Shown here in pieces: positions 12,754-61,363 of a stretch of 64,000 nucleotides of DNA. The position numbers and the translations under genes were made by a program. The stretch lies in NCBI GenBank assembly GCA_015099395.1, contig AP024096.1, positions 5,518,001 to 5,582,000 of the forward strand, given 5' to 3'. The stretch is from Ktedonobacteria bacterium brp13 (GTDB lineage: Bacteria; Chloroflexota; Ktedonobacteria; Ktedonobacterales; Ktedonobacteraceae). Under the pieces are notes generated by a model that saw only the letters and a list, made by a program, of their open reading frames with translations, ran no database searches and was not told the origin of the DNA. Within the stretch, counting starts at the first letter, position 1. Every line of letters begins with the position of its first letter.

Positions 12754-13229
12754 TGATATAGCCCCCTTACCGCGTGCGAACCGGCACAGGCTTCCCTATA
12801 TAACACAGCCTTACATACCATGAAGTGTACGAAAGAATAAGAAAGCTGTCAACTCCACTATTAGTATGCTGATCTTATCTTTATCACTATAACGCAGCAG
12901 AAGTACTAAAGTTGCGATTCATCCACCTTTAGGTTGACCATAACGGTTATTTTGAGAGTACTGCATACAGTATCATGTACAAAAATCAGTACAATGCAAC
13001 TATTGTGCTACCACTCCTGTATAGTATTGACGCTCATCTCACCTAAAATTAGTAGTCTCTTGTTAAAAAGGACATCTCACCATACAAATACGATCAATAA
13101 GGGCTACTCACTTGACTGTATTAGCGTTTTTTAATACGATGCTATTTAAACACAATCGTCAATGACGCTCACTTGCCGCAAGATGTACCGAGTGTGCATC
13201 ATTGCGAAAACGAGCCGAAGGAGATCAGT
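12754..13229. other. Divergent intergenic region
   Basis: Holds the start regions of the BACON gene and the kinase gene. Many short AT-rich promoter-like words are present but none is decisive. No RNA gene or repeat was seen. Confidence 0.5.
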
Positions 13230-15614
13230 ATGGGCGATCGCGTTGGTCAACAACTAGGGAACTATCAACTACTCCGCCTGATAGGCCAGGGCGGCTTTGC
13301 CGATGTCTACCTCGGTGAGCATGTGCATTTGCGGACCCAGGCAGCAATTAAGGTTTTACAAGTACGTCTCGTCGATACTACTATTCAGAATTTCCTCAAC
13401 GAAGCTCGCACGATTGCGCACCTGATCCATCCATATATTATTCGCGTGCTGGACTTCGGCGTGCAGGATAACGTCCCCTTTCTGGTGATGGACTACGCTC
13501 CACGGGGCACCTTTCGGCAACGTTTCTTGCAGGGCAAACCTCTACCATCAGGGCCACTTGTACCATATATGAAGCAGACAGCTGCCGCATTACAATATGG
13601 GCACGATAGGAAGCTTATCCATCGCGATGTCAAGCCAGAGAATATGCTGCTCGGACCAGGCGACCAGATCTTGTTAGCCGATTTCGGACTTGCCTTAATC
13701 GCTTATAACTCGGTCTCGCGCTCACCAACAGAGACCGCTGGTACAGCGGCCTATATGGCACCCGAACAGTTACAGGGACAACCACGTGCGGCCAGCGACC
13801 AGTACTCATTGGGCGTCATCGCCTATGAATGGCTCACAGGCGCGGTACCTTTCGAGGGTTCATTCTTTGAGATCGCCAGCCAGCAAGTCCTCCAGCCAAT
13901 TCCACGCATGCGCGACAAGAATCCTGCAATCCCGACAGATGTCGAACAGGTCATCATGAAAGCACTCGAGAAAGATCCACAGCGCCGCTTCCCCAATGCC
14001 AAAGACTTTGCCCTGGCACTTGAAGAGGCATGCTTGATCTCTCGACAATACTCCTTTGAGCAGGACCCCACAGCGTCTACCATACGTCCAATGTCTCCAG
14101 TAATGACAAAGCAGCCAGACTCCTCAGTAGATTCCCCTGTTAGAAGTGACGCTCAAGAGGCAAGTTCATCAAAAAATGCCGGAAACTCATTCCAGGATAC
14201 GACATTTCCCATACAGCAATCCAGTCCTGTCAGCCAGTCCAGGCAAGCCGCCTTCCCTGCAGCATGGTCGTCAGGATCACAATCCGCCTCGACACCACTA
14301 TTCCCATCGGGGCCGCTATCTGCACCCTTCCCAACGTTCACACCAACAACGAACGCGACACCAGATAGCACTAAAGCGGCGAACGCACAGAACTCGTTCG
14401 GTGGCATGCCACCTGTACCACCGAGCACGCCCACAGCTGCAGGTGCGCCCAATATGTCATCGTTACAGGGACTATCCCCATTATCAACGGACTCTAATAC
14501 CAATCGACCATCGTATCCCGCGGTCGGTGTGCGCACGGGTCAGGGTCCTTCACAGGTCAGACAATACTTGATGGGTGGCGTGACACCCGAGGTTGAACTG
14601 GACCCGTTGGCAGGATCTCCATTACTAAACAATATGCCTGGCATCAACACCTTTAACTCAGCTGCTACAACTACTACCACCCCTAACACCACATTCCAGC
14701 CACAGACACGTCCGGCCACGGAACCGCATGCAACAGCACCATTCACATCCCCTCCACTACGTCGAATACCCGGTACAATGAACGTTGCGGTTCTGGCTAT
14801 TATTGGCATTGTGGTCCTTATCATTGCTGGAAGTGCCATCGAGCTCTTTACCATGTCAGGCAATATGAGCAAAAAAACGGTAGCGCAGACGATCTCTACA
14901 GCCACCCCCATTAGTAAACCAACAGCACAACCGACACGACATGTTCAGGCGAAACCTATTGCGCCGCAAATTGTACAGGAAACGAATCCCTATGCCACCA
15001 CTGGTACCCTGGTACTGAACGATAGTCTGGTAAATAGCCAGGGAAACTGGCAACAGGGGACCATCAACGCCACTGGTGGTACATGTACATTAAAGCAGGG
15101 GATCGGCTACGAGTTAGACGCGCCAATTATCGATCCAGGTGCCTGTTATGGGCAACAGAGCTATACCAACTTCGCCTATGAAGTCCAGATGAAATTTACC
15201 CAGATCGGTCAACTCTACAGTGGTGGTGGCATCGTCTTCCGCGCCAATAGCAATAACAACCAGTATTACTACTTTGAGGTTTTTCAGGATGGTACATACA
15301 CCTTGCAGATCTGTAACGCAGGGGACTGCGTTACCACACTGGACGGCTACAAAGTGGGGAAGGCAGCAATAACATCCTTTGTGCCGGGTCTCAACATAAC
15401 CAATACGCTGGCCGTAGTCGCTAAAAACAATTACTTTGCACTCTTTGTCAACAAGCAACTGGTAACCGATGTGCCTGACCTGAAATCGACTTATACCAGT
15501 GGCACTATCGGCGTCATGGCAACAGGAGGCAACAACCAGGGTCTACGCACCGCCGACACAAGTACCACAACAGTGGCCATCTTCACCGATGCAAAAGTAT
15601 GGGTCTTGAAATAG
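13230..15614 (+). CDS. Membrane Ser/Thr protein kinase with extracellular lectin-like (LamG/DUF1080-type) sensor
   Basis: A PknB-type receptor kinase of 794 residues. The kinase domain covers about residues 12-275: glycine loop GQGGFADVYLG, VAIKVL-type Lys (AAIKVLQ), HRDVKPENM catalytic loop, DFGLAL and APEQ. A Ser/Thr/Pro-rich linker of about 230 residues follows, then one transmembrane helix (about 517-540, VAVLAIIGIVVLIIAGSAIEL) and an extracytoplasmic beta-sandwich (about 590-794) resembling LamG/3-keto-disaccharide-hydrolase folds (YSGGGIVFRANSNNNQYYYFEV). I start at ATG 13230, which has AAGGAG 7 nt upstream; an in-frame start 57 bp earlier has no ribosome site. The sensor probably binds a glycan or envelope component; the ligand is unknown. 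Confidence 0.88.
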   Translation: MGDRVGQQLGNYQLLRLIGQGGFADVYLGEHVHLRTQAAIKVLQVRLVDTTIQNFLNEARTIAHLIHPYIIRVLDFGVQDNVPFLVMDYAPRGTFRQRFLQGKPLPSGPLVPYMKQTAAALQYGHDRKLIHRDVKPENMLLGPGDQILLADFGLALIAYNSVSRSPTETAGTAAYMAPEQLQGQPRAASDQYSLGVIAYEWLTGAVPFEGSFFEIASQQVLQPIPRMRDKNPAIPTDVEQVIMKALEKDPQRRFPNAKDFALALEEACLISRQYSFEQDPTASTIRPMSPVMTKQPDSSVDSPVRSDAQEASSSKNAGNSFQDTTFPIQQSSPVSQSRQAAFPAAWSSGSQSASTPLFPSGPLSAPFPTFTPTTNATPDSTKAANAQNSFGGMPPVPPSTPTAAGAPNMSSLQGLSPLSTDSNTNRPSYPAVGVRTGQGPSQVRQYLMGGVTPEVELDPLAGSPLLNNMPGINTFNSAATTTTTPNTTFQPQTRPATEPHATAPFTSPPLRRIPGTMNVAVLAIIGIVVLIIAGSAIELFTMSGNMSKKTVAQTISTATPISKPTAQPTRHVQAKPIAPQIVQETNPYATTGTLVLNDSLVNSQGNWQQGTINATGGTCTLKQGIGYELDAPIIDPGACYGQQSYTNFAYEVQMKFTQIGQLYSGGGIVFRANSNNNQYYYFEVFQDGTYTLQICNAGDCVTTLDGYKVGKAAITSFVPGLNITNTLAVVAKNNYFALFVNKQLVTDVPDLKSTYTSGTIGVMATGGNNQGLRTADTSTTTVAIFTDAKVWVLK

Positions 15615-20791: not shown

Positions 20792-22744
20792 TCATCGCGA
20801 TACCTGGCTGGCGTCCGCGAGTGCCGCTTGTGGAGCGGCTTGCTCTTGCTTTTTGTCGTGGGACTGCCGACTACTCAAGAAGTGGACCTCTTGATCGAAG
20901 ATGCGGCGCAAGATCGCTATGCTACACGCGTAGGTTGAATCCATGCCAAAGTAGGAGAGACTACCTGCACCCAGGTTTTTGCTCCGAGTGTAGGGGGTAT
21001 CAGACGCATAGTGCAGGATACCGACCTCGTAGGGGAGCCGTACTAGATTGATGTTTTCACTGGTAGGATAACGCGTGAGATACTGGTCTTCATAGATGGC
21101 GTTCAGGTAGGGACCACCTTCCATCTCGACGACCGTATAGTTCGCGTTATAATAAAAATCCAGATACTGACGATTCTGCAAGAAAGTGCCTTTGGTTGAG
21201 ATCGCCTTCTGGTTGTCCAGCACAGAACCATAGACCAGGTAAGGTAAGACATTATCCGGTGTGAAGGCATTGTCGAGCCAGTAAGTATTCTGGCTATGTT
21301 CATCCATTAAGACATTGGAGATCATGACGTCGCCAATGCTGCCATTGAGCGTCGCAGCCTTGCCCAGAATATAGATGCCACGAATCTGCGAGACATTCTC
21401 CATGACTTCGCGCATCATACGATAGGCCGCCATACCCAGTGGATAATCAATATTGAGAATGATAGCATCGCTCTGTGTTAAGAGCTCCAGTGACGACATG
21501 CGACAGCGCGGATCGAACTCGGTCTGACGCAAGCGCGAAAGATCGTAGACCTGGGCATCGATCTCCAGACCGTGCCGGGCTCCGATATGCCAGATACCTC
21601 TCTCCTGCGACTCTCGTAGCCGGGAACGGGCCGCCTCTTTGCCAGCCGGAGTATGCAGCCATTCACGCGAGGCAAAGTACAGGAAATTCTGCCAGTTACC
21701 CGGAACCTCTCCCTGCTGCAGCTTATGATACTCATCGGTCAGGTAAGGATCTTCGCTGCTCAGCGCATACTCGATCAGTTCATTTTCATGGCTACGCACA
21801 AAGCCAGAAAGAATATTGGTCAGGCTATGCGTATTGCTGGAGACGAAGTAAACCGGACGATCCTGAAGTCCCTTCTCCTCGAGCAGTCGCTTGACCGGTA
21901 CCCACCACTTGCGGGTCGCCCTGACATAGCCGACGTACGAACCACCCAGCATACGTAGTTTGAAGCTCTTGCGCTGACTGCCGATATCATGCAACTGCTC
22001 CCACAGCCGATCACCCCAGATTAACTTGAGGCGCTGCCAATCGTCAGCCGCGATATGCAGTCGATGGCGTAATACTTTACTGATCTCTGCGAAGACAGGC
22101 GAGTTTTGATCGACCTGCGTCTCTAATAGCTGCATTGTTGTCGGATCAGCATTCAACAGGTAGTACATCTTGTTCCATTCGATCTGGTAGGCGACCAGAC
22201 TAGGAACAATATCATCGGTATCACTTACACTGGCAACATACACAGCCAGCGCCTTTTCGCCGTTATAGAACCATTTACGACGGCGTGCGGGAGCGGTTAC
22301 CGCCTGCCAGTTAATAACATCAAAACCTTGCTGTTGAAAGAACTCTTCTGACTGACCCAGCAAGACAAGGTCACATTGGGTGATCACAGAAGGGAGACGT
22401 AACACGCTGTAGATGAACGCGGACATATCCGGAAACGGCTTACGGGCGTCAGGGTGCAGGCTAGAGTCAATATTGTAGTGCGCCTGAATTAACGCCTTCA
22501 AATTAACTTCACCAGAGCTACGGAGCAGCGTATTGTAGGTACGGATGTACAACTCTACGTCACGCTTCCCTGCTTCATGGTATTTCTCGCCATACTCCAT
22601 CGTCGGAGTCAGGGAAGTACGCTGTGCCTGCTGCTCGTCAAGTAGCTCATCATCGATTTCGTCTACAGTGTTCGCATTTGTCAGTGATACATATTTTTGC
22701 GTATCACGATCATCTTTATGGTCATTCTTTGGTTTTTGAGACAT
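20792..22744 (-). CDS. Nucleoside-phosphorylase-fold protein (DUF6909-like)
   Basis: A 650-residue cytoplasmic protein. I start at ATG 22744, which has GAGGAAAG upstream; the frame runs 14 codons further without a ribosome site. The C-terminal 230 residues contain a phosphorylase-like core: IRGIYILGKAATLNGSIGD (phosphate-loop-like), ISNVLMDE, then STKGTFLQNRQYLDF and VVEMEGGPYLNAI, the ME(G) motif that contacts ribose in PNP/UDP phosphorylases. It is thus probably a nucleoside phosphorylase or nucleosidase relative fused to a 400-residue N-terminal domain I do not recognise (TRKWWVPVKRLLEEKG). Similar long proteins occur in Chloroflexota. Substrate unknown. Confidence 0.6.
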   Translation of the reverse strand: MSQKPKNDHKDDRDTQKYVSLTNANTVDEIDDELLDEQQAQRTSLTPTMEYGEKYHEAGKRDVELYIRTYNTLLRSSGEVNLKALIQAHYNIDSSLHPDARKPFPDMSAFIYSVLRLPSVITQCDLVLLGQSEEFFQQQGFDVINWQAVTAPARRRKWFYNGEKALAVYVASVSDTDDIVPSLVAYQIEWNKMYYLLNADPTTMQLLETQVDQNSPVFAEISKVLRHRLHIAADDWQRLKLIWGDRLWEQLHDIGSQRKSFKLRMLGGSYVGYVRATRKWWVPVKRLLEEKGLQDRPVYFVSSNTHSLTNILSGFVRSHENELIEYALSSEDPYLTDEYHKLQQGEVPGNWQNFLYFASREWLHTPAGKEAARSRLRESQERGIWHIGARHGLEIDAQVYDLSRLRQTEFDPRCRMSSLELLTQSDAIILNIDYPLGMAAYRMMREVMENVSQIRGIYILGKAATLNGSIGDVMISNVLMDEHSQNTYWLDNAFTPDNVLPYLVYGSVLDNQKAISTKGTFLQNRQYLDFYYNANYTVVEMEGGPYLNAIYEDQYLTRYPTSENINLVRLPYEVGILHYASDTPYTRSKNLGAGSLSYFGMDSTYACSIAILRRIFDQEVHFLSSRQSHDKKQEQAAPQAALADASQVSR

Positions 22745-22867
22745 ATACTTTCCTCTACAGGAAGCAAGCCTGAGCATAGCATCCAAGTTTTCAATATATT
22801 ATACTGCAAATGCCATAATCTACTAGAGGAAATTAGTAACAAAAAACAACTTTCACATTGAAGTATA

Positions 22868-23731
22868 TCAACGTATTTGTGGTTTTTGCAGTATTATAAT
22901 GTATTGATGTACAATATTAGGTATGTAAGCGGAAGGGTAACCATAGGGCCGTAGACGCGACCCGGATTGGTACCAGATGATCTCTCCCTTAGGGATAAAA
23001 CCGTGCAGGCGAGCACGCCGGGCAAGATCGACGTGCGTGAAGATATACTCACCATGCTGATAGGCATTCCGTATGATGACAAGCATGTATTTTTGTGGCT
23101 TCAACAACAGGAAGCAGCGAGCAAAGACGCGCTCCATCGCATCCAGGTAGGCATCGTATGAGGGCAAGTTGGCAAGATCACCGAGATCTTCAGAATGCAT
23201 ATTGTAGTCGGTACGTCGATTGCGATACGCCTCAGCATAGCGCTCGGTCGACATTGTCTTCTCCAGATGAATATTGTAGGGAGGATCGGTGGCGATAAAG
23301 TCAAAAGAGCCAGGTTGCAGCGTATCCATAACTTGCAGACAGTCCCCCTGCATCAGTTGTTGTGGTAAAAGCATCCCATTGCTTTCAGCAAGGATGCGCT
23401 GATAGATATCGACCCAGTGTGGGTTGATCTCGATGCCAAAGGCCCGACGTGGCTTACGGCAGATAGAGGCACCTATCAGGGTTCCACCAACACCAGCGAA
23501 AGGATCAAGCACATAGCCATCTGGCTTGGTAAAGAACTCGATAAGCTGGCTCATCAATTGCGGCGGCTTGTTCGCGCCATGCTCTTTACGCAAACGATGA
23601 CCATATTCGGAAGGGTATGATGTCGTAATGATACTCTTTGTAAAATAGAGCCATTCCGAACCAGTCAATTCGTTTAAAGTGTTCCGCAATGAAACGTCTT
23701 CGTGCTCCACAGTTCCACTCCAATGCAACAA
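22868..23731 (-). CDS. Orphan DNA methyltransferase (N6-adenine/N4-cytosine)
   Basis: A 287-residue DNA methylase. A motif X-like part HGANKPPQLM is followed by SAM-binding motif I LDPFAGVGGTLIGA (about residues 99-112), the acidic strand FGIEINPHW, and catalytic motif IV ATDPPYN. The order X-I-IV differs from CcrM-type enzymes, in which IV comes first. The C-terminus (FIPKGEIIWYQSG...YIIILQKP) carries motif VIII-like strands. The TTG at 23731 has no good ribosome site; a GTG at 23710 with GGAG upstream is a good alternative. No restriction endonuclease or specificity subunit lies nearby, so an epigenetic or protective role is likelier than a restriction system. Confidence 0.85.
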   Translation of the reverse strand: MLHWSGTVEHEDVSLRNTLNELTGSEWLYFTKSIITTSYPSEYGHRLRKEHGANKPPQLMSQLIEFFTKPDGYVLDPFAGVGGTLIGASICRKPRRAFGIEINPHWVDIYQRILAESNGMLLPQQLMQGDCLQVMDTLQPGSFDFIATDPPYNIHLEKTMSTERYAEAYRNRRTDYNMHSEDLGDLANLPSYDAYLDAMERVFARCFLLLKPQKYMLVIIRNAYQHGEYIFTHVDLARRARLHGFIPKGEIIWYQSGSRLRPYGYPSAYIPNIVHQYIIILQKPQIR

Positions 23732-23959
23732 AGGTGCTGACGGTTCTACAATAACGACACACCTAAGATTTACAATACCAATACGAATATGGATACAATG
23801 GAAGGCACAATAAACTGTAGCATAAAACCGTAGTACAATAAAAGATATTAGTACACTATTAGCTCTTCTTATTAATTATTATAGATTTTATCTACCATAG
23901 CATTATTATGAGTGCAGCGTGGATCTAGGTTTGGAGCAACGACCCTTACATTTGGGGGG

Positions 23960-24110
23960 AATAGTGTGCTAAAACGACCGTTTTTAGCGTACACTATTGG
24001 TAGGAGGTATTACTAAAATGCCGGGTGTCCCCATGCCTGGCATTTCCCCCTAGTAATACTTCCTCGTTTCCATTCCGCCTGTAAACATGAGGGCAAAATA
24101 GAGCCTCATC
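23960..24110. repeat. Cluster of three strong hairpins, MITE or structured RNA candidate
   Basis: In a 519-bp gene-free stretch (23732-24250). Hairpin 1 (23960-23998): AATAGTGT/ACACTATT extended by GCTAAAA/TTTTAGC with a 2-nt bulge. Hairpin 2 (24003-24063): GGAGGTATTACTA paired with TAGTAATACTTCC (one G-T), enclosing AAATGCC/GGCATTT. Hairpin 3 (24088-24110): ATGAGG/CCTCAT. They are only 4-24 bp apart. The rest of the gap (23732-23950, 24111-24250) shows nothing I can name. Confidence 0.7.
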
Positions 24111-24250
24111 GACCTCTTTGTGCTCGCATTTCCTCAACTCAAAAATCTAGTATCTGTATGACTTCAACAATCAATTTTTATGCGTACAATTTTATAAAAT
24201 AGTAGGATAAAGAGGCCTGACCAGGATTCTAGCTATAACGCCTATCCCTC

Positions 24251-25132
24251 TCAACCAGCCACTGCTAGTATATGAAAGACATTCGTGAGCAATTCCATTA
24301 TTCCATGATATGAGATGACAAGCAGAGATAAAGTAGCGACAACAATATGCACTGTACGCCATGTATGAATAATACGTTGAGCACTCCTCTGACGACGCAA
24401 TGAAGCATCCAACTGCGCATATGCATTGAAAATCTGACTGACTTTTTGCCAGTCGGTCACCTCGTGCGCGGGGATCTCTTCATGATCATCTGAGATACGT
24501 CCATGTGAGCTCAACGCTTCGCTGCAGGCCCACTTGAACGGATCGGATTTGCCAGCACAATAGCGCTCGACCATGTATTCGTAATCTTGTAGACGCGAGA
24601 GCACACTCTGCGTAATCCCGCTGCCATTCATAGCGGCCTCACGAGCAATAACTCGCGTCTGCCAGTAGTCCAGACCTCTCCCGATAAGACCGATGAGAAC
24701 AAGCAAGCCGAGCGCATAAAGCGCTCCACCAGCCCAATATGAAGTAGTCAGACAGCCCAGATTTTGGCAGTAGTCATGGGTTACAAAGGTGAAGTTTTCG
24801 TGCAGGAAAACGACCAGCAGCGAGATCAGACCCAGCCATGTATGCATCCAGAGCCAGTTCTGGACCATCCCCGGCAGCTGCCGCAGTAAGCGCCTGCGCA
24901 ATGTATAAGAGGCCGCAACCAGTACCAGCACGTAGGCGATAATACCAAAGAGACGCAACGGATCAGTAAACGGTCCTGCAAACGGTTGCGTTTTCAGTGC
25001 GTAGAGGTACCAGGCGAGCAGTGCGAGATACAGCAGAACGCTGACCACGAACCAGAGCCAGCGCCCGCTCGCCCTCGGTGTCTTCCAGAGACGGCGTTCC
25101 TGTACACTTGATGGCTGGGAGGATGCAGACAT
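24251..25132 (-). CDS. Membrane b-type cytochrome-like subunit of a redox operon
   Basis: A 293-residue protein with about five transmembrane helices: WFVVSVLLYLALLAWYLYAL, IIAYVLVLVAAS, WLGLISLLVVFLH, YWAGGALYALGLLVLIGLIG and HIVVATLSLLVISYHGIMEL. Paired His in WMHTWLG...VVFLHEN and IHTWRTVH...SYHG are placed like haem ligands of ferric-reductase/cytochrome-b-like four-helix proteins. A soluble loop of about 85 residues separates the last two helices. ATG at 25132 follows AAGGGCAAGC. It is the third gene after the FAD/FHA and ferredoxin/cNMP genes (17-bp gap), so it probably passes electrons between them and the quinone pool. Haem binding is inferred. Confidence 0.75.
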   Translation of the reverse strand: MSASSQPSSVQERRLWKTPRASGRWLWFVVSVLLYLALLAWYLYALKTQPFAGPFTDPLRLFGIIAYVLVLVAASYTLRRRLLRQLPGMVQNWLWMHTWLGLISLLVVFLHENFTFVTHDYCQNLGCLTTSYWAGGALYALGLLVLIGLIGRGLDYWQTRVIAREAAMNGSGITQSVLSRLQDYEYMVERYCAGKSDPFKWACSEALSSHGRISDDHEEIPAHEVTDWQKVSQIFNAYAQLDASLRRQRSAQRIIHTWRTVHIVVATLSLLVISYHGIMELLTNVFHILAVAG

Positions 25133-25149
25133 AGCTTGCCCTTCTTTTG

Positions 25150-27207
25150 TTATCTGGCCCGACGACCCAGGATCTCTTCAGTTGATCCAAAGAAGGTCAC
25201 CGGATTCACACGAATAGCGGCCCCCGTGGGACACGCCTGCACGCAGGCTTGATTATTATAGCCAACACAGAGATCACACTTCACAGCAATCTTCTTACGT
25301 ATGGCACTCACAGGATCATTGTCATCTAGTGTAGCGCAGGCAGGCAGGATAGGACCTGGCTGCGGCCTGGTCTGGAGTAGTGGCAACACTTTTCTTCCGC
25401 TGGGAGAGGTAAAACCACGCACTTCACCAGCATGCGTCGCTTGTGCTGTCTGTGACTGCTTTCCGAAGAAGCGGCTGAAACGTTGCCATGTCGGGGCAGC
25501 AGAGCCGGCTGTAGTGGACGTCTCGTCGTCTAGTGTCACGATAGAGATATTGTCATACGGGCAACGCTCGGCACAGATACCACAGCCAATACAACTTTCC
25601 GTAATATAAATTTCACCGGATGGCGAACGAGCGATACCAGCACGACTACACAGCATACAGACGGGGTCCTGACATTGACGACAGGCATTGACAACACTGA
25701 TATTGCCAACCACCATCCCTTCGCGATGCATGCGTGAGTGACCATGCCGGCGTTCACAGGCATCGACACACTCATCACAATGGATGCAGCGATCAAGATC
25801 GATCACCAGTACATCGGTCCCTTCAACCACACCATCACTCACGAGAGCGTGTAGACCCGAGCGAGCCTCGGCAACCGAGAAAACATTGATAGGTGACGAA
25901 TCTCGCGCCGCCAACTGCAAAGGATCGAAAGGTTCAAAAACTCCACTATAGGCCGCAGTACTTGCCTCTCGATAGACACGCAGACGCTCTTTGAGACGTT
26001 CAAGAAAGGCCGGATACGCTTTGAGCAAGCTCTTCAGTTGGGAGTGAGAGATCTCAGCCGCCGTGACACGATTAATCGCCGTCGCCGAGACCGCGCCCTG
26101 CCCACCAAACATATCCATACCACTGGTAAAATAATCACCACGCTGACGATACGCGATCACACGTTCAGGCTGCTCAGCACGACCCGTACGGCGCGCAACC
26201 TTCACAAAACCATCCAGAAGAACGTGCAGGTTCCCCTGTGCCACAGTCGGCTCTGAGCGTTCATCGAAGAGACGCTCACCACGTTCATAGGCTCTGATCG
26301 TCGCTCTACCAGCCAGCCAGTGCAGATCTTCTTGTGCGATATCCTTTAAGAGATCCAGTCGTTTAAAAATCTCTTCGGCAGCACGGGCGGTGTTATATTG
26401 CACGAAGAAGCGCTCCAGGGCCGGTACAGTCTCCAACATGTGCAACATCACCTGTTCTGGCACAGACAGCACCACAGCAGGCTCACATGCGCGTACAGTA
26501 CAATTTCTAGGCTGGCCGGTCAGCATCCCCTGTTCTCCAACGTAGTCACCACGGTGCAAGATCGCTAGCGGCAATGCGTTGCCATCTACATCATACGAGA
26601 AGAGCTCGCAGGAGCCAGACAAAATGAAATAGACCTCACGCCCGAACTCGCCTTCGCGCAACAGTTCGGTATCAGTAGCGACAACCCGTAGCGTAGAGGC
26701 GGTACAAAAATGGAGCAGATAAGTATCAGGGACAAGACGCTCGTCCTGAAACATCGGTTGCTCGCGCAGACTACTGACCAGCAAAGGCAGGTTCCAGCCA
26801 GCAGGCAAGGCCTCCATTAACGGAGCCAGTTCCACCTGACCATCCCACGGCGTCCCCACACGCTTTTTGAGCGCCAGCATCAGAAGATCCCGATGATTAT
26901 CGACCGGGCAGACAGGGACACATGATCCACACAGCACACACTCATTGGCAAAGCGTGCGATCTGCGGGGCCACATCATCAGAGATCGTAGCGCGGTTCAG
27001 AGCAGCCATATCTACCTGGGCAGAGAGCGGGACCGGGCAGACACGCATACAACGATCACAACCGATACACATATCGATCTCAAAGTGAACCTCATCGTCG
27101 CTCAAGGCACGCATCTGACGAATATCGCCAGCACTTTGAGAACGAACGGATAACGGTAAACGGTTTGCCGTAGCAGGCGACGTCGGCTTTCCTGTGTGTA
27201 CTTGCAT
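25150..27207 (-). CDS. Multi-[4Fe-4S] ferredoxin fused to two cyclic-nucleotide-binding domains
   Basis: A 685-residue cytosolic electron-transfer protein. Order: two N-terminal 4Fe-4S motifs (CIGCDRCMRVCP and CVLCGSCVPVCP); a first cNMP-binding domain (LREGEFGREVYFILSGSCELF...GDYVGEQGMLTG); a second, shorter one (YERGERLF...GDYFTSGMDMF); and a C-terminal DMSO-reductase-subunit-B-like ferredoxin with CIHCDECVDAC, CRQCQDPVCMLC, CIGCGICAERCP and CDLCVGYNNQACVQACP. I start at ATG 27207, with GGAGGAAAG upstream; the longer frame would overlap the preceding gene. The fusion suggests that nucleotide binding gates electron flow; the ligand (cAMP, cGMP or other) is unknown. The gaps to its neighbours (22 and 17 bp) support an operon. 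Confidence 0.85.
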   Translation of the reverse strand: MQVHTGKPTSPATANRLPLSVRSQSAGDIRQMRALSDDEVHFEIDMCIGCDRCMRVCPVPLSAQVDMAALNRATISDDVAPQIARFANECVLCGSCVPVCPVDNHRDLLMLALKKRVGTPWDGQVELAPLMEALPAGWNLPLLVSSLREQPMFQDERLVPDTYLLHFCTASTLRVVATDTELLREGEFGREVYFILSGSCELFSYDVDGNALPLAILHRGDYVGEQGMLTGQPRNCTVRACEPAVVLSVPEQVMLHMLETVPALERFFVQYNTARAAEEIFKRLDLLKDIAQEDLHWLAGRATIRAYERGERLFDERSEPTVAQGNLHVLLDGFVKVARRTGRAEQPERVIAYRQRGDYFTSGMDMFGGQGAVSATAINRVTAAEISHSQLKSLLKAYPAFLERLKERLRVYREASTAAYSGVFEPFDPLQLAARDSSPINVFSVAEARSGLHALVSDGVVEGTDVLVIDLDRCIHCDECVDACERRHGHSRMHREGMVVGNISVVNACRQCQDPVCMLCSRAGIARSPSGEIYITESCIGCGICAERCPYDNISIVTLDDETSTTAGSAAPTWQRFSRFFGKQSQTAQATHAGEVRGFTSPSGRKVLPLLQTRPQPGPILPACATLDDNDPVSAIRKKIAVKCDLCVGYNNQACVQACPTGAAIRVNPVTFFGSTEEILGRRAR

Positions 27208-27229
27208 CAACTGTAGCTTTCCTCCAGAC

Positions 27230-29719
27230 TTAAGACGCACGCAATTGCGTACTGCAACTGGCGCAGAAGCGTGCACGTGGCATGTTAGCCAGCCCGCACT
27301 GGGGACAGATTACCACCGGTACTGGTAGCTTCTCAGCCTGGATCGCCTTCTTGAGCGCGGCAGTGGTCGCACGGGGCTTTGCAGGCTGGGCCAGATTCCC
27401 TGGCTGCACCGCTTGCACCATAGCGGTCTGCTCACGTCCCGATTGCAGATCAACAAAGATAATGATCGTCGAGCCTAAGGTTATATGGTCACCATGCGCA
27501 AGTCGATACGGTTGCTCGATCCTGCTCTGATTGACCATACTGCCATTACTACTACCCAGATCACGAATGTAGAAACCCTCAACTGTCGCATAGACCTCTG
27601 CATGATTACGGGAGACAACCCGATCAGGGAGAACAATATCGTTACTATCCACACGACCAATCGAGACCAGCTTATCATCTTGCAAAAGGTGCACAGCCGG
27701 CGGCTGCTTCTGCCCACCCATACTCTCGACGGGCAGCACAATCAATGCTGGCTGCTGTTTTAAAGCATTAACAATTGCAGATGGCAACTGCTGTGCCGCC
27801 CCCGGTGTAACCCTCATAACGCTGGACTGTAGTGCGGCCGAGCGTGGTGCTGCAGGAACTTTATACGTTTCATTATTATCCATAGCAGTGGCACGTCTGT
27901 TGGTAGCGCTAACCACCTTCTTCACTTCCGGCGCAGCCTTGTTGGTTGCGGTCGGATCGTTGGTCGCAAGCTCGTGAAAATCCAACGTACGTAAAAGAAA
28001 ACGGAACGTAACAATATTTCCGTAGCGAATCTCATCATTCACATGCAATTGGTACTGTCGCTGCGGAACCAGGCGTTGTCCATTGATAAACGTCCCATTC
28101 AAACTCCCCAGATCACAGAGCTCAAAGTGATCATCCTGATAACGCAGAGAGGCGTGGCAACGTGAGACCGATCCCTCATTGACAACCAGATCAACACCAC
28201 CAGGCTGGCGACCGATTACAAGTGGCTTCTCGCGCGTCAGTAGCGTCTCAGCAACTCGCAGCGGCAGGTGCGCGTCGATCACGTGCAGTAAAAAGGCTTC
28301 AGTATGATCAGTAGCGGTCAGATTTTCCAGCATTTGCTTTTCTCCAACAGGCTCCACAATGGGTTCCAGCGCGACTTCCGCAGGCTCTCTTCCAGGACGA
28401 ACAATAAGATCAGCATCAATAGCAAGCTGATCGGCAACTCGTATACGCTGAACGCCCAGTTGTAACGGCAGGACACCTCGTTCATCCAGCCAGCTTGCCA
28501 GATCAAAGTCATCCTCAAAGAGCTTAGCGCGCACCTCTGAAAGATTAACTTGATGATCAATCGCTCGCTTAAAGGCCAGTGTATGCTTACGATGGCCTAA
28601 CGACAAGAGACCGACAGGCACATCATCGCAGAGCAGCAACTTACGATAGATGCGTGGCTGTGGATCTGCGACCAGTTCACGATATCCTCTGGTATTGGTC
28701 ACCCCCACCGAAGCAAAAGGCAAGCCATAAAGAAACGTTGCATTATAGAATGTATCAATACGGAAAGGTCGCGCCGTATCTAGCAAGTCTAGCATGCTAT
28801 AGGCAGCGGCACGTGCCTGCTGAATGGCAGGATACCATTGACCAACCAGCCGTGTGCGCCCGGTCTCAGCAATGACACTTTCTACAACATCGCCAGCGGC
28901 ATAGATATCCGGCGCGTTCGTACGCAGATACTCATCGACCAGCACACCACGACGGCAGGCGATCCCGCTAGCCCGGATATAGTCGACATTGGGAACAATA
29001 CCGATAGCGACCAGCACGATCTCACATGGGATACGCTCACCACTCCCGGTCACCACAGCGGTAACGGAACCATGCGCCCCCTCGATGCTCGCGATCTCGC
29101 ATTCAAGACGAATATCGACACCGGCCCGTTGCTCCTCCTGCATCACCAGATCAGAGGCCGTCGCATCCAGCACCTCCGACCATAAGAGACGCTTACGGAT
29201 CAGGTGAGTGACATGAAAACCACGACCGCGCAGAGTCTCCACAGTCTCTAGCGCAAGCGTCCCACTACCACTCACCACAACCCTGCGCACAGCCGCCAGC
29301 CGCTCCTGTATCTGCTGGTAGTCGTCCAGCGTACGTAGCGTCGTTACGCCAGCCAGAGCGGCACCGGGACAGGTCAGAGACAACGCCTGCGCACCAGTCG
29401 CCAGCAATAGACGACCATAATGCACACGTCCACCACTACGGAGCACCACCATATGCTGATCCGGCAAAATACGTGCCACATGATCGACCAGAAAATGGAT
29501 CTGTTGTTGCTGATAAAAACCAACAGGGCGCGCCCATAACTTCTCTTCATGCACACGCTCAGCCAGAAAATCTTTGAGCGCGGGACGAAAATAGACCGGC
29601 CGATCATCGTCGGCAATGATACCAATCGATGCATCAGGGAGCTCAGTCCGCAAGGTCTCAGCAGCAGTAATGCCTGCGATACCATTGCCAATAATTAAAA
29701 ATGATATCTGCTCAGCCAT
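27230..29719 (-). CDS. FAD/NAD(P)-dependent oxidoreductase fused to two FHA domains and a zinc ribbon
   Basis: An 829-residue protein, first gene of the redox operon. The N-terminal pyridine-nucleotide-disulfide oxidoreductase part (about residues 1-400) has FLIIGNGIAGITAAE (FAD), VVSGSGTLALETVE (NAD(P)H) and IYAAGDVVE. FHA domain 1 (about 500-580): VIGRQPGGVDLVV...VSRCHASL...LGSLNGTFING. FHA domain 2 (about 690-770): SIGRVDSNDIVLPDRVVSRNHAEV...LGSSNGSMVN. The C-terminal zinc ribbon is CPQCGLANMPRARFCASC. I start at ATG 29719 (GAGGATAGAG upstream). FHA domains bind phosphothreonine, so phosphorylation by the resident Ser/Thr kinases could recruit or control the complex; this is inference. Confidence 0.85.
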   Translation of the reverse strand: MAEQISFLIIGNGIAGITAAETLRTELPDASIGIIADDDRPVYFRPALKDFLAERVHEEKLWARPVGFYQQQQIHFLVDHVARILPDQHMVVLRSGGRVHYGRLLLATGAQALSLTCPGAALAGVTTLRTLDDYQQIQERLAAVRRVVVSGSGTLALETVETLRGRGFHVTHLIRKRLLWSEVLDATASDLVMQEEQRAGVDIRLECEIASIEGAHGSVTAVVTGSGERIPCEIVLVAIGIVPNVDYIRASGIACRRGVLVDEYLRTNAPDIYAAGDVVESVIAETGRTRLVGQWYPAIQQARAAAYSMLDLLDTARPFRIDTFYNATFLYGLPFASVGVTNTRGYRELVADPQPRIYRKLLLCDDVPVGLLSLGHRKHTLAFKRAIDHQVNLSEVRAKLFEDDFDLASWLDERGVLPLQLGVQRIRVADQLAIDADLIVRPGREPAEVALEPIVEPVGEKQMLENLTATDHTEAFLLHVIDAHLPLRVAETLLTREKPLVIGRQPGGVDLVVNEGSVSRCHASLRYQDDHFELCDLGSLNGTFINGQRLVPQRQYQLHVNDEIRYGNIVTFRFLLRTLDFHELATNDPTATNKAAPEVKKVVSATNRRATAMDNNETYKVPAAPRSAALQSSVMRVTPGAAQQLPSAIVNALKQQPALIVLPVESMGGQKQPPAVHLLQDDKLVSIGRVDSNDIVLPDRVVSRNHAEVYATVEGFYIRDLGSSNGSMVNQSRIEQPYRLAHGDHITLGSTIIIFVDLQSGREQTAMVQAVQPGNLAQPAKPRATTAALKKAIQAEKLPVPVVICPQCGLANMPRARFCASCSTQLRAS

Positions 29720-30094
29720 CTCTATCCTCAATCCATCCTCACACCTGGTCATCACCATGAGCCAGGAACAGCAACCTCACATCATCAAGACACACGATAC
29801 GCAAAATGCATATATTTACTTTTCATATTACCAGCGTGAGAGGAAAAGTGCTTATATGTGGATACATACCATTACTCATTTCCTAATATATAGTGCTGGC
29901 TTGCCATCCCTCAAGAAGTTACCAAATGGCTAGACCATTAGTATGCGACACAGTCGATGCACTGTGAAGAGCTTATAATAAAAAGAACCGGTGAAAAGCT
30001 GGCGTCATATTCTCACAATTAAACTATTGCAGCTTTATGAGTCTTATTATTAGAACATATTTTCTTGTTACTGTTTCGGATGGAGGGAATTTTA
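29720..30094. other. Divergent intergenic region between the redox operon and dnaE
   Basis: About 375 bp, AT-rich, with the start regions of two divergent genes. No gene, RNA or repeat was identified. Confidence 0.5.
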
Positions 30095-33000
30095 ATGGGG
30101 GCGGACTTCGCGCATCTACATGTTCACACAGAATATTCGTTACTAGACGGCCTTAGCCGCATCAAGAAGCTTGTGAAACAGACGAAGGCGCTAGGCATGA
30201 ACCACCTGGCAATCACTGATCACGGCACGATGTATGGGGCCATCGAATTCTACAAGGCCTGTAAGGCCGAGGGGGTCAACCCGATCATCGGCGTAGAGGC
30301 ATACCTGACCGAAAATATCCACGACCGCACCAAACCCCGGCATGATGACTATACGCACCTCCTACTGATGGCAAAGAATAATACCGGCTATCACAATCTG
30401 CTCAAACTGACGAGCATCGCAAATACACAGGGTGTGCGCGCCAATAAGCCGCGTATTGATAAAGATCTGCTCGCGAAGTACGGCGAAGGGCTGATTGCGA
30501 CCTCGTCTTGCCTGGGCGGCGAGATCCCACAGTTACTAGCAAAGGATCAGTATGATGAGGCACGCAAGATCGCACGCTGGTATCAAGACGTCCTGGGTCC
30601 AGAGAACTACTACCTGGAGATCCAGGATCATCATGGCTGTGAAGACGACGGCAAACCTTCACCCCAGGTCGACGTCAACCAGCAGCTTTATCGGATGCAC
30701 AAGGATATGGGCATCCCGATGATTGCAACCAACGATCTACACTATGTGCACGATACCGATGCAAAGGTACATGAGATCCTGCTCTGTGTACAGACCGCCA
30801 GTCAACTGGCAGGCAAACACTTCCACTTTGATAGCCAGGAATATTTTCTGCGCAGTCCCGAACAGATGCTACAACTCTTCCCTGATCTACCGGATGCGTT
30901 GACCAATACGGTCCGGCTTGCGGAGCAGTGCAGCATCGATCCACTGGCCTATAAAGCGACACTTCCGGCGTTCGCCATCCCGCCTGAATATGCAACACAA
31001 CGCGATTACCTTTATGACCTGTGTATCAAAGGGATGCATGAGCGCTTCGGCGAGATCACCGAGCCAATGTACCGCCAGCTCGACTACGAATTCAGTATCA
31101 TCGAGCAGAAGGGTTTTGTTGCCTACTTCTTGATCGTCGGTGACTTTGTCGCGTGGTCGCGTAATAACGGCATCCGTTGTTCCGCGCGTGGCTCGGCGGC
31201 TGGTAGTCTGGTCGCCTACTCACTCGGCATCACCAACGTCGATCCCTTACGCTATCACTTGCTCTTTGAACGCTTCCTGAATCCAGAGCGCGACGATATG
31301 CCTGATGTTGACATGGATTTTTCCGATAACCGTCGCGAAGATGTCATCAACTACGTCGCGCAGAAGTACGGTGATGACTGCGTCGCACAGATGGTAACCT
31401 TCAATACGATGGCCGCCAAAAACTCCGTGAAGGACGTCTCCCGTGTACTGGGACAGCAAGAGGTCGGTGAACGTATCAGCCGCCTGATCCCTTCGGGTCC
31501 AAAAATTACGCTCCAGGGTTCGCTCGACGAAGTCAAAGATCTGAATGACCTCTACAAAAGTAACTCGATTGCACGCGAGATCCTGGATCAGGCGCTGCAA
31601 CTCGAAGGCTGCGTCCGCTCGACCGGCACACACGCTGCCGGTGTCGTCATTGGCAACGAACCACTGGAAAACTTTGTACCGATGCGCTCCAAGGACCACA
31701 AAGATCCCAGCGCGGGCCGTGAGACGCAGTACGAACATGACCATCTCGAAGAGCTTGGTCTGATCAAGTTCGACTTCCTGGGCCTCTCGAACCTGACCAT
31801 CCTTGATAATACCGTCAAGTTTATTCAAGATGGCCGTGGCGAGCTGATCAATCTAGAGAAGGTTCCGCTTGATCCGGTCGAGGGGATGGATGAGCAGAAC
31901 GCGATGCGCCAGAAGGCCTTTGAACTGCTGGCCCTGGGCGAAACCACCGGTGTCTTCCAGTTGGAAGGTGCCAAGATGCGCGAGTACATCAAGCAGTTGA
32001 AGCCGACTAGTATCGAGGATGTGACCGCAATGGTCGCCCTCTACCGACCGGGTCCGATGGATAGTATTCCAGACTTTGTCGACTCCAAACATGGACGTAA
32101 GAAGGTTACCTATCTGGATCCACGTTTGGAAGAATGGCTGGCTGAATCCTACGGCGTTATCGTCTATCAGGACCAGGTGCTGCTGATCGCTGTAAACCTG
32201 GCCGGCTTCTCCTGGGGCAAGGTAAATAAGTTCCGTAAAGCCCTCAGTAAGAAGAAGATGGATGAGGTAGAAAGCTACCGCGCCGACTTCATCAAAGGCT
32301 GCGTCAGCAACGGCGTCGCGCAAGAAGTTGCGGAACAGCTCTTTACGCTGGTCTTACCATTCGGCGGTTATGGTTTCAATAAGGCCCACGCCGCCAGTTA
32401 TGCCGTCGTCGCCTTCTATACCGCCTATCTGAAAGCCAACTATACGGCCGAGTTTATGGCCGCGACGATGACAACCGAGGCAGCAGACGCCAAGAAGATC
32501 TCGGCGGCCATCTCGGAATGTAAGCGCATGGGTGTCGAAATATTGGGTCCTGATGTCAGCTATAGCGATATGGGCTTTACCGTCGAAGACGATTGCGTGC
32601 GCTTTGGATTGCTAGCGATCAAGGGCGTTGGTGAGGGGCCGATCGGTGAGATCGTCCGTGCTCGTCGGGAGGGTGGACCCTTCAAATCGCTGGCCGACTT
32701 CTGTACGCGCGTCGATCCCAAATTTGCCGGGAAGGGCGTCATCGAGACCCTGATCAAGGCTGGCGCAATGGATACGCTGGCGGATGGCAAACGTCACCAG
32801 TTACTCGCCTCTGTTGAGCGCGCTATGCAGTTTGGTAAGAGCGAACGCGCTGCGAAAGCACAGGGTATGATGAGCCTCTTCGGTGATCTGGAAGAGATCG
32901 GGAACGCCTTCGAGTTCCAGATGAACGAGAATGCCGATGAGATCTCGCGCAAGCAGTTGCTCAGCTGGGAGAAAGAACTGATCGGCGTCTATATCTCCAA

Positions 33001-46544: not shown

Positions 46545-48953
46545 CTAGTTGGATACAGCCGGCAAATGGACCGTTGGGATATTGATTGGCTGCAACTGGG
46601 TGATCTTAATCTGCCGGAGACTGCCTGGGATGCTGTTGCCGTAGCTCAGGCGTACTGAAGCCACCGAGGGATCAAGGTTCGGCAGATTTTTGAGGTACGC
46701 ACGTGCATCGATGGCAGACATACCTTCAAGATGCTTCTGAATAACCGCCAGTTGATCCTGCGTGAGTTGATAGCTTGCAACGCCCCCCACAGCGATAGCA
46801 ATCTTGACGTCGCCGTTCGCGCCAACACTGCGAATAACCGGTTGACCGACGCGCGTCATAGTATCGATCAGACTATACTGCGCTGGCGTCTTCTGCTTTA
46901 AGAGTTGCAATGCCAGTGTGCGTACATCCGAAGCGCGGATATACTCTATGCTCCCTTGTTCTGTCATTGTCACGGTCATACTCGTGCTGACGGTCCCCAG
47001 TGGAGGAGCTGACTCGACATCGCCATCCGAGTAAATGATATTGCCGATAGTTGTCACACCTTGCGTACCGACCTGTTTATTAATATTCTGCGCGATCGTA
47101 CTTCTCAGACCTGGTCGCAGTTGCGCCGATAGATAGCTCACATCGTTGAGCGAGACGGTCTGCTTGCAATCAAAAATTCCCATCACGCAGCCACTGACAC
47201 CGGTAGGCGCACCCTGCAAAGAGCCCTTCTGTGTGACTGTCAGCGCACTGGCTGGCAACGTATCCTGGCTCACATTGATACTCTTGACGTTCGGCGAGGC
47301 AGTCATAGTCAGAACCTCGCTTACAGGCTGCATACGTGGGCCAACCGTGACCGTTGCCGTTATAGAAGCGGCCCAGACCAGATAGCCGCCACCGATCAAT
47401 GCCACCAGGATCAGGACAGAAATGATAGCAATCAGCAATCCCAGCGAACTACGGCGGGGACGCGTACTCGGGGTATCAGCGGCAACAGGTGTAAGTACAC
47501 CACCAGCCGCACCGTTCACCGTCTTCGTTCCAACAAAGGGCACACTACGAAGCAGTGTACGCTTCTGCGGCTGAGCTTTTGCGAGTTCTGCATCGGATTC
47601 AGCACTATCGAGATCAATCATCGAAGTCGGAGCATCATAGTCATCACGGCGAAACTTGCGGTTAGCAGACGATGTTGGCAGGACAGTACCAGCCTGTGGC
47701 GGCAACTGTGCGGGCGCGAATGGGTGTGGATTCACCGAAGTGCGACGATCGAGCACGACATATTCCCTCTCAGGGGCTCCTGAGTCTGTGCTCTCACTCG
47801 CTGGTAGTATATGCTCACCTGAACTGCGACGCCGGTTGAGCCGCTCTAATGGCGAGATAACGACCTGCTCCTGAGCCTGCGCTACTGGCCTCGCAGTAAG
47901 AGGAGGCAGGGCAGGATTTGACTGCCGTCCAGTCTGTGAAGACGGTGAAGGCAAACGGGACGTCGCGGGATACGCCGGTGAAGATGGAGAGGATACAGGG
48001 GCGTCCTCGATCGTATAACGCGCCGTCGCGAGATCAGGCACAGATCTGCCAGGTTCTGGTGTACGAGGACGCTCGGCTGGACGTTCAAAGGTCGAAGTAA
48101 GTGGCTGCATCGTCGATAAAGAACGGCAAGCGTGCTCAAAGGCCCGTAGCAACTCGTCAGCAGAGGCAAACCGTTGCTCTGGATCAGGGGCCAGACAATG
48201 GGCAACGACATCTGAGAGCGGTGCGGGCAGGGCATGGAGATCCTCAGCGTGCTCTGGTAAGCCACCGGTCAGCATCAAGAAGAGAATTACACCCAGCGAA
48301 TAGATATCATTACTCGGTGCAGCGATACCCCGTCTGCGCTCGGGAGCCATATAGGCTGCAGTCCCCGGCGCGCCATCCGTAGCGGTCAATGCAGCATTGG
48401 GCGGCAAGCCCTGCGCAACCGCGATCCCAAAATCGATCAGACGCACATAGACGCGCTCGCTATCCTCTTCTTTATCCAGCAGAATATTGCCAGGTTTGAG
48501 ATCCCGATGGACAATACCACGCTTATGCAGGTAGGAGACCGCACGAACAAGCGCACCAAAAATATCGTGGACCTCAGCCAGTGAGAGCGGACCACGCCCA
48601 ATGCGCTGTGCCAGCGTCCCACCCGCAATATAAGGAGTCACGATAAACAGACGACCTTGTTCTTCACCAAACTCAAGCAGAGGTAGAATATGATCATGCT
48701 TCAGATAGGAGCCCACCTCAGCTTCACGCAGAAAGCGTTGACGTGCAATGGCATCGTTAACCAGGTCGGGGCGAATAATCTTGACAGCCACCTCACGCCC
48801 AAATGCCGTCCGCTGGTGAGCCAGGTAGACCTCGCCCATTCCTCCCACGTCGACACGCCGCACCAGATCATAATTACCGAAGGAAAGTAAACCAGGCTGC
48901 TCATCGTTACTGGATTGTCTGCGTTCTGAAATGAAACCGTTTTGTTCTTTCAT
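46545..48953 (-). CDS. Membrane Ser/Thr protein kinase with baseplate-J-like extracytoplasmic domain
   Basis: An 802-residue PknB-type kinase. Domain about residues 25-290: VDVGGMGEVYLAH, EVAVKIIRPD, HRDLKPGNILL, DFGIAV, YMAPERR. A Pro/Ser/Arg-rich linker of about 200 residues follows, one transmembrane helix (about 503-525, LLIAIISVLILVALIGGGYLVW), and an outside part of about 275 residues: ITATVTVGPRMQPVSEVL..., ending ARAYLKNLPNLDPSVASVRLSYGN. That ending resembles baseplate J/gp47-like domains common in Chloroflexota membrane proteins; this assignment is tentative. No strong ribosome site precedes ATG 48953. An omega-RNA follows directly in the same direction. Confidence 0.85.
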   Translation of the reverse strand: MKEQNGFISERRQSSNDEQPGLLSFGNYDLVRRVDVGGMGEVYLAHQRTAFGREVAVKIIRPDLVNDAIARQRFLREAEVGSYLKHDHILPLLEFGEEQGRLFIVTPYIAGGTLAQRIGRGPLSLAEVHDIFGALVRAVSYLHKRGIVHRDLKPGNILLDKEEDSERVYVRLIDFGIAVAQGLPPNAALTATDGAPGTAAYMAPERRRGIAAPSNDIYSLGVILFLMLTGGLPEHAEDLHALPAPLSDVVAHCLAPDPEQRFASADELLRAFEHACRSLSTMQPLTSTFERPAERPRTPEPGRSVPDLATARYTIEDAPVSSPSSPAYPATSRLPSPSSQTGRQSNPALPPLTARPVAQAQEQVVISPLERLNRRRSSGEHILPASESTDSGAPEREYVVLDRRTSVNPHPFAPAQLPPQAGTVLPTSSANRKFRRDDYDAPTSMIDLDSAESDAELAKAQPQKRTLLRSVPFVGTKTVNGAAGGVLTPVAADTPSTRPRRSSLGLLIAIISVLILVALIGGGYLVWAASITATVTVGPRMQPVSEVLTMTASPNVKSINVSQDTLPASALTVTQKGSLQGAPTGVSGCVMGIFDCKQTVSLNDVSYLSAQLRPGLRSTIAQNINKQVGTQGVTTIGNIIYSDGDVESAPPLGTVSTSMTVTMTEQGSIEYIRASDVRTLALQLLKQKTPAQYSLIDTMTRVGQPVIRSVGANGDVKIAIAVGGVASYQLTQDQLAVIQKHLEGMSAIDARAYLKNLPNLDPSVASVRLSYGNSIPGSLRQIKITQLQPINIPTVHLPAVSN

Positions 48954-59807: not shown

Positions 59808-59819
59808 AGCAGCGTCCCT

Positions 59820-61358: not shown

Positions 61359-61363
61359 GACGA

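Follow-up and report, generated by a model that had tools for sequence, protein, structure and literature searches.

The window analyzed here, a 64,000-nucleotide stretch of DNA from Ktedonobacteria bacterium brp13 (contig AP024096.1, positions 5,518,001 to 5,582,000), carries three tightly packed genes on its minus strand between positions 24251 and 29719. Called A, B, and C in this work, they encode a flavoprotein with two FHA domains, an iron-sulfur protein with two cyclic-nucleotide-binding (cNMP) domains, and a helical, cytochrome-like membrane protein (Table 1). Only about 22 nt separate A from B and about 17 nt separate B from C, and a purine-rich stretch that is a candidate ribosome site can be read directly from the sequence in each of the two gaps. 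For B, a GTG at 27276, upstream of the likely ATG, is an alternative start that would give a protein of 708 aa. A promoter and terminator scan came out near the level of shuffled sequence (8 versus 5.8 in shuffles and 7 versus 5.3 in shuffles), and an Rfam search of 22000-31000 gave no match.

Table 1. Features of the operon in the window and the related locus of Sphingobium
Feature	Coordinates	Strand	Support
Gene A (829 aa), FAD/NAD(P)-dependent reductase carrying two FHA domains plus a zinc ribbon at the C-terminus	27230..29719	-	
A: Pyr_redox_2 FAD and NAD(P) domains, residues 7-302	28814..29701	-	Pfam E 7.7e-54
A: FHA domain 1	28019..28219	-	
A: FHA domain 2	27473..27667	-	
A: zinc ribbon (CxxC...CxxC), residues 802-827	27239..27316	-	
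Gene B, dicluster ferredoxin - cNMP - cNMP - four-cluster polyferredoxin, 685 aa from likely ATG	25150..27207	-	
B: N-terminal 2x[4Fe-4S], Cys 47, 50, 53, 57, 90, 93, 96, 100	26902..27078	-	
B: cNMP domain 1	26428..26688	-	
B: cNMP domain 2, limits approximate	26038..26331	-	
B: C-terminal 4x[4Fe-4S] domain, 16 Cys, HydN/DmsB-like	25213..25806	-	
Gene C, membrane cytochrome b-like protein, 293 aa	24251..25132	-	
Sphingobium megaplasmid flavo-cNMP-polyferredoxin, cytochrome b, and decaheme cytochrome	L050:7726-12898; L051:5975-11503		

Domains and motifs of the three proteins

The Pyr_redox_2 FAD/NAD(P)-binding fold extends along the whole FAD part of A. Among solved structures, the best relatives of A are ferredoxin reductases (BphA4, for example) and the FAD subunit of the Aromatoleum enzyme AOR (8c0z_E, aligned to A residues 7-406 with E 2.6e-38 in a search for relatives in the PDB). 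The NAD(P) site reads THLIRK, and the position usually held by Glu is Arg in 15/15 readable rows of the alignment, a residue reminiscent of NADPH-dependent enzymes, glutathione reductase for example. Pfam detects two FHA stretches (E 6.2e-41). FHA1 has the phosphothreonine ligand motif (Gly-Arg, Ser-x-x-His, Asn), and the motif of FHA2 is intact in the window. Across the alignment FHA1 retains Gly-Arg in 16/16, Ser-Arg in 16/16, His in 15/16, and Asn in 14/16 proteins, and FHA2 has Gly-Arg, Ser, and His in 13/16. The C-terminal residues of A resemble a zinc ribbon, which is absent from the three fused A-B forms described below. The alignments of A and B leave out L048 and L049, which are not from Ktedonobacterales, as well as L046, which is kept in the alignment of C.

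In B, Pfam matches cNMP_binding in two stretches (E 3.2e-27) and Fer4 in four, and the cNMP folds are located between the N-terminal and C-terminal ferredoxin parts. Of the 29 cysteines in the window protein, 24 are invariant in 16/16 homologues and form six four-cysteine motifs. The first cNMP domain has both phosphate-binding-cassette residues in the window, with Glu225 kept in 16/16 and Arg234 in 12/16 homologues. Cys 517/520 form a C-x2-C in one of the C-terminal cluster motifs in all 16/16 Ktedonobacterales rows; L048 has C-x3-C there.

C is helical, and the window protein has no confident Pfam family. Two of its helices each carry an H-x13-H motif (His97/His111 and His262/His276), with all four histidines invariant in 23/23 homologues, including those from Sphingobium, a gammaproteobacterium, and the paralogues. 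An AlphaFold model of C (predicted local distance difference test score, pLDDT, of 77; predicted template modeling score, pTM, of 0.65) places the two motifs on the third and the last long helix. The second and the fourth helix are each followed by an Arg-rich stretch, which suggests a cytoplasmic location for those helix ends; in that case His97/His262 would be the inner heme pair and His111/His276 the outer one. The His pattern of C is strong, and its fold assignment is not. Taken as a whole, the locus looks much as a first-pass annotation had described it. The three-gene operon lies where it was placed, the FAD enzyme has its two FHA domains, and the four invariant histidines support the call of a multi-helix cytochrome-like protein. 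The remaining protein had been named a ferredoxin with two cNMP domains; the two cNMP folds are there, and its six [4Fe-4S] motifs make it more than a ferredoxin.

Conservation, paralogues, and comparison with known systems

A scan of bacterial and archaeal genomes returned 18 loci, 16 of which are further loci of Ktedonobacterales (L032-L047) and keep the A-B-C order wherever the contig is long enough. Identical match values and lengths mark entries L003-L011 and L059 as repeats of L032-L047, and they were left out of the counts. Two genomes of the window's genus share their match values with Dictyobacter vulcani (L034) and D. arantiisoli (L035), which places the window, part of a single 8.88 Mb contig, in a probable Dictyobacter genome (Ktedonobacteraceae, Chloroflexota). 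The flanks vary: Dictyobacter keeps dnaE upstream and a methylase/DUF6909 pair downstream, this pair is inverted in Ktedonosporobacter (L037), and none of dnaE, the methylase, and DUF6909 is present in the fetched flanks of Ktedonobacter (L041, L042, and L045). A and B form a single open reading frame (ORF) in L044 (1384 aa), L047 (1397 aa), and L043 (at least 1169 aa, at a contig edge), and the fused L043 comes from the same metagenome-assembled genome (MAG) as the unfused L039. These three fusions are good evidence that the A and B proteins meet. Chance neighbors can be ruled out, as A-B-C stay together where both flanks differ and A fuses to B. The idea of one redox unit is thus supported by the order kept in relatives, by the three fusions, and by a single-chain version in Sphingobium that is discussed below. 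In L046, A and B are each split into two ORFs, either by decay or by assembly error. B itself was found over most of its length (E<1e-100) in at least 10 of 301 Chloroflexota genomes, a lower bound with few candidates scored per genome, and all of these are among the 21 genomes of the window's family. Other Chloroflexota families have B-like proteins of 454-545 aa (L052, L053, L055, L056, L057, L060, and L061) with cNMP and polyferredoxin parts, checked by Pfam in L053; an H-x13-H scan found no adjacent C-type cytochrome at any of these seven loci.

The genome of the window also holds a simpler version of the operon. At L058 (6010-9233), a 613-aa flavoprotein without FHA domains (A') is followed by a ferredoxin (B') and a cytochrome (C'), with B' being a 104-aa two-cluster ferredoxin that overlaps A' by ATGA. 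This trio lies downstream of histidine kinase and response regulator genes, and similar trios occur in other Ktedonobacteria. All 13 distinct paralogue loci tested (14 entries, L002 being the same as L058) have an A-like protein, a ferredoxin match, and a C homologue. None of the 13 has an FHA match at E<=1e-3, and four control loci with FHA domains matched in 4/4 cases. Because the paralogue loci lack FHA matches, a common core has either gained the FHA and cNMP domains or lost them. The A'-B'-C' arrangement suggests a working core to which the signal domains are an addition.

The same parts are found in Pseudomonadota in another layout. On the Sphingobium plasmid pMSHV (B6S01_RS18455-18445), one 825-aa protein unites a Pyr_redox domain with two cNMP domains and a four-cluster polyferredoxin, and is followed by a C-type cytochrome and then by a protein with ten CxxCH motifs (a decaheme cytochrome). 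The N-terminus of the decaheme cytochrome, before its membrane helix, matches the FHA-like Yop-YscD_cpl profile (E 3.6e-6). Read directly, this FHA-like domain keeps Gly-Arg and His without the Ser, and therefore it may not be a phosphothreonine reader. Read by eye, Glu and Arg are retained in each of the two cNMP domains of the Sphingobium protein. The locus differs from the operon of the window in its one fused cytoplasmic chain, in the placement of the FHA-like cytoplasmic head on the decaheme cytochrome, and in its identity to B of about 28%. It is also uncharacterized, with its genes annotated by domain or as hypothetical. All 12 matching records in the plasmid collection are from Sphingobium. 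The gammaproteobacterial locus L048 has a cNMP-polyferredoxin, a C-type cytochrome, and a cytochrome with ten CxxCH motifs in that order, with a 2Fe-2S flavin reductase upstream. The L048 protein is rare in its class, since it was found at E<=1e-30 in 2/185 genomes of the class of that MAG (the query's own and one more).

Each part of the operon has a known counterpart. Control of a redox enzyme by an FHA domain is familiar from GarA and OdhI, separate FHA proteins that regulate 2-oxoglutarate dehydrogenase by binding; here the FHA domains are instead part of the flavoprotein. C shares bis-His pairs on two helices with the ferric reductase-like transmembrane cytochromes, which we take to comprise the NOX, STEAP, and MsrQ-like proteins, and 13 of its 23 homologues show weak matches to the Ferric_reduct profile (PF01794) at E<=0.05, with a best E of 1.2e-6. 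The C of the window has no such match, and its flavin is in a separate subunit reached through iron-sulfur clusters. For A and B, the closest parallels are FAD subunits of the AorC/PadH type, which pair with an adjacent or fused polyferredoxin just as A does with the adjoining, and in three loci fused, B. The FAD/NAD part of A is related to AorC of Aromatoleum AorABC (PDB 8c0z), and in AOR the FAD subunit connects to a series of [4Fe-4S] clusters, with FAD 9.5 Å from a cluster of the polyferredoxin AorA, in a complex that uses NAD+ (PMC10413684). The AOR FAD subunit seated on AorA is thus a solved precedent for an A-B contact. In contrast to AorABC, this operon has no tungsten subunit, a membrane cytochrome in its place, and extra FHA and cNMP domains. 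The PadH model of the NADH-dependent phenylglyoxylate dehydrogenase covers A 4-403 (E 6.6e-53) and PadI matches part of B, but the scores are far below the family cut-offs (180 versus 475 bits for PadH) and no 2-oxoacid dehydrogenase subunits are present. What appears to be uncharacterized is the combination. No characterized system with FHA and cNMP readers on electron-carrying subunits was found among open-licence papers, in agreement with the first-pass annotation, to which no characterized counterpart was known.

Neighboring genes

A kinase-fold gene precedes A in 9 of the 15 loci with enough upstream DNA. It is directly upstream on the same strand in L036-L039, L041, and L045, is separated from A by two ORFs in L042, and is divergent in L044 and L047; the other six loci (the window, L032-L035, and L040) lack it. 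Pfam places a Rieske [2Fe-2S] domain at the C-terminus of this gene in six of seven cases tested (L044 is cut at a contig end). Additionally, a CxH...CxxH motif is present in eight of the nine kinase-fold proteins, after a hydrophobic stretch read as a membrane helix, which itself often follows an RR motif. On the other side of the operon, a zinc-ribbon/RskA_C-like gene lies downstream of C in 11 of 15 loci with flanking sequence and is absent in the window, L044, L046, and L047. The gene at L037:11156-12493 and its equivalents encode such a zinc-ribbon, RskA_C-like membrane protein.

The identified neighbors of the operon in the window are dnaE, the methylase, and DUF6909. Among the genes of the operon and the flanking ORFs that were identified, which in relatives include the conserved kinase-Rieske and zinc-ribbon genes, there is no catalytic tungsten, 2-oxoacid, or molybdopterin subunit, and on this basis a molybdenum or tungsten enzyme, a complex iron-sulfur molybdoenzyme, and a 2-oxoacid oxidoreductase were each rejected. 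The window holds two large protein kinase genes (13173-15614 and 46545-48953), and kinases of the window had been suggested for FHA pull-downs; both genes are far from the operon and unlinked to it. Two class III cyclase domains are present in the genome, which counts in favor of the signal-regulated complex proposed below. Elsewhere in the window, at 58095-63337, three consecutive Proton_antipo_M genes form a complex I NuoL/M/N-like cluster.

Proposed electron path, possible gating, and rival readings

We propose that A, B, and C together form an NAD(P)H oxidation complex that crosses the membrane and is regulated by signals; with all of its elements taken together, we hold this reading with evenly divided confidence. 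The sequence itself establishes the domains, their motifs, the conserved operon, and the fusions, and cofactor loading, the direction of flow, the acceptor, and the gating are inferred. A would accept hydride from NAD(P)H on its FAD, B would relay the electrons one at a time over as many as six [4Fe-4S] clusters, and C would take them across the membrane via two stacked b hemes, first the inner (His97/His262) and then the outer one (His111/His276), to an acceptor at or close to the outer face. A membrane relay as such is probable, judging from the conserved motifs, while our confidence in an acceptor on the outer side stops just short of the halfway mark. Relatives hint at the type of acceptor, which could be a membrane-tethered Rieske protein (many Ktedonobacteraceae) or a decaheme cytochrome c (Sphingobium and a gammaproteobacterium). 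Given the location of the cNMP domains, flanked on both sides by ferredoxin parts of B, and that of the FHA domains, next after the flavin part in A, binding of a ligand or of phosphothreonine would alter assembly or electron flow. Control through phosphothreonine is a tentative suggestion, and control through cNMP binding is slightly more tentative still. The first-pass annotation had these signals wired directly into the electron chain; the domain fusion is real, and such wiring would be an inference from it.

A number of observations weigh against this proposal. The first-pass annotation had named a lack of ligand residues in the FHA and cNMP domains as a finding that would refute it, and although the FHA domains of the window keep theirs and cNMP domain 1 keeps both Glu and Arg, cNMP domain 2 has neither. 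Its Glu position is never Glu (0/16), and its Arg position, Arg or Lys in 15/16, is Gly in the window. Domain 1 also loses its Arg in 4/16 homologues (Tyr in the three fused forms and Gln in L039), and FHA2 is missing in 3/16, the three Ktedonobacter loci. No outer acceptor in the form of a linked Rieske or cytochrome c gene lies beside the operon in the window, and the one pseudokinase-transmembrane-Rieske gene of this genome (L097:6599-8923; G000:C1, ~3.351 Mb) is unlinked, ~2.2 Mb away. The kinase-like gene before A in relatives has a catalytic loop of HRN or HGS and a DFG motif changed to EFG or GFG in 8/8 readable proteins (L038 is cut). With the catalytic and Mg-binding Asp residues missing, the product is probably a pseudokinase and is no obvious source of phosphothreonine; an active kinase-FHA pair was rejected on these motifs. 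The model of B is poor (pLDDT 54), with an unusable C-terminal polyferredoxin. A Foldseek search with the model of C gave no match below E 0.001, and a second fold comparison ties STEAP2 (Z 8.5, root-mean-square deviation 5.3, 166 aligned residues) and the Streptococcus pneumoniae NADPH oxidase SpNOX (Z 7.7, root-mean-square deviation 4.8, 132 aligned) with unrelated helical proteins.

The lack of a linked Rieske or cytochrome c gene in the window would also suit a route in which electrons leave within the membrane. C could feed the quinone pool, so that the unit would be an NAD(P)H:menaquinone oxidoreductase, a regulated side entrance to respiration without an acceptor protein on the outside. 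Reaction with quinones is common among diheme cytochromes b, and the simpler A'-B'-C' of L058 has no outer redox neighbor, but elsewhere, in two settings, a redox protein anchored in the membrane on its outer side stands before or after the unit, and we regard the quinone route as unlikely. Electrons could also run the other way, with quinol or an outer donor reducing NAD(P)+ or ferredoxin through C-B-A. The same FAD-polyferredoxin pairing in AOR reduces NAD+, and PadH, which A resembles, belongs to a dehydrogenase linked to NADH. This direction nevertheless seems highly improbable, given that the operon has no dedicated donor enzyme and that transfer from menaquinol would be uphill, with no coupling device seen. 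Finally, the chain may serve to report the redox state of the cell, with the FHA and cNMP domains and, in relatives, the pseudokinase acting as scaffolds of a signaling assembly. The pseudokinase-transmembrane-Rieske neighbor, the degenerate second cNMP domain, and the Sphingobium FHA-like head lacking the phosphothreonine Ser fit such a sensor, whereas the invariance of all 24 cluster cysteines and four heme histidines and the existence of a stand-alone core without signal domains suit catalysis, leaving a pure sensor distinctly unlikely.

Control of respiratory entry points usually runs through transcription or through the substrate. Two kinds of signal-reader domain are covalently part of electron-carrying subunits here, and a like kit occurs in another phylum in a different layout. 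A broader and doubtful proposition is that A-B-C stands for a family, not described so far, of gated electron conduits through the membrane in Chloroflexota and Pseudomonadota. In it, binding of second messengers (cNMP) and phosphorylation of proteins (FHA) would switch the passage of electrons from NAD(P)H via two b hemes to swappable outer acceptors, either a Rieske domain on a pseudokinase or a decaheme cytochrome c, and allosteric signaling would bear directly on the electron path instead of on gene expression. The unit is small, with three genes, and its genome supplies a natural paralogue free of signal domains, which makes these ideas directly testable, and if the gating is true, the operon would provide a fast and direct link from second messengers or kinases to transmembrane electron flow.

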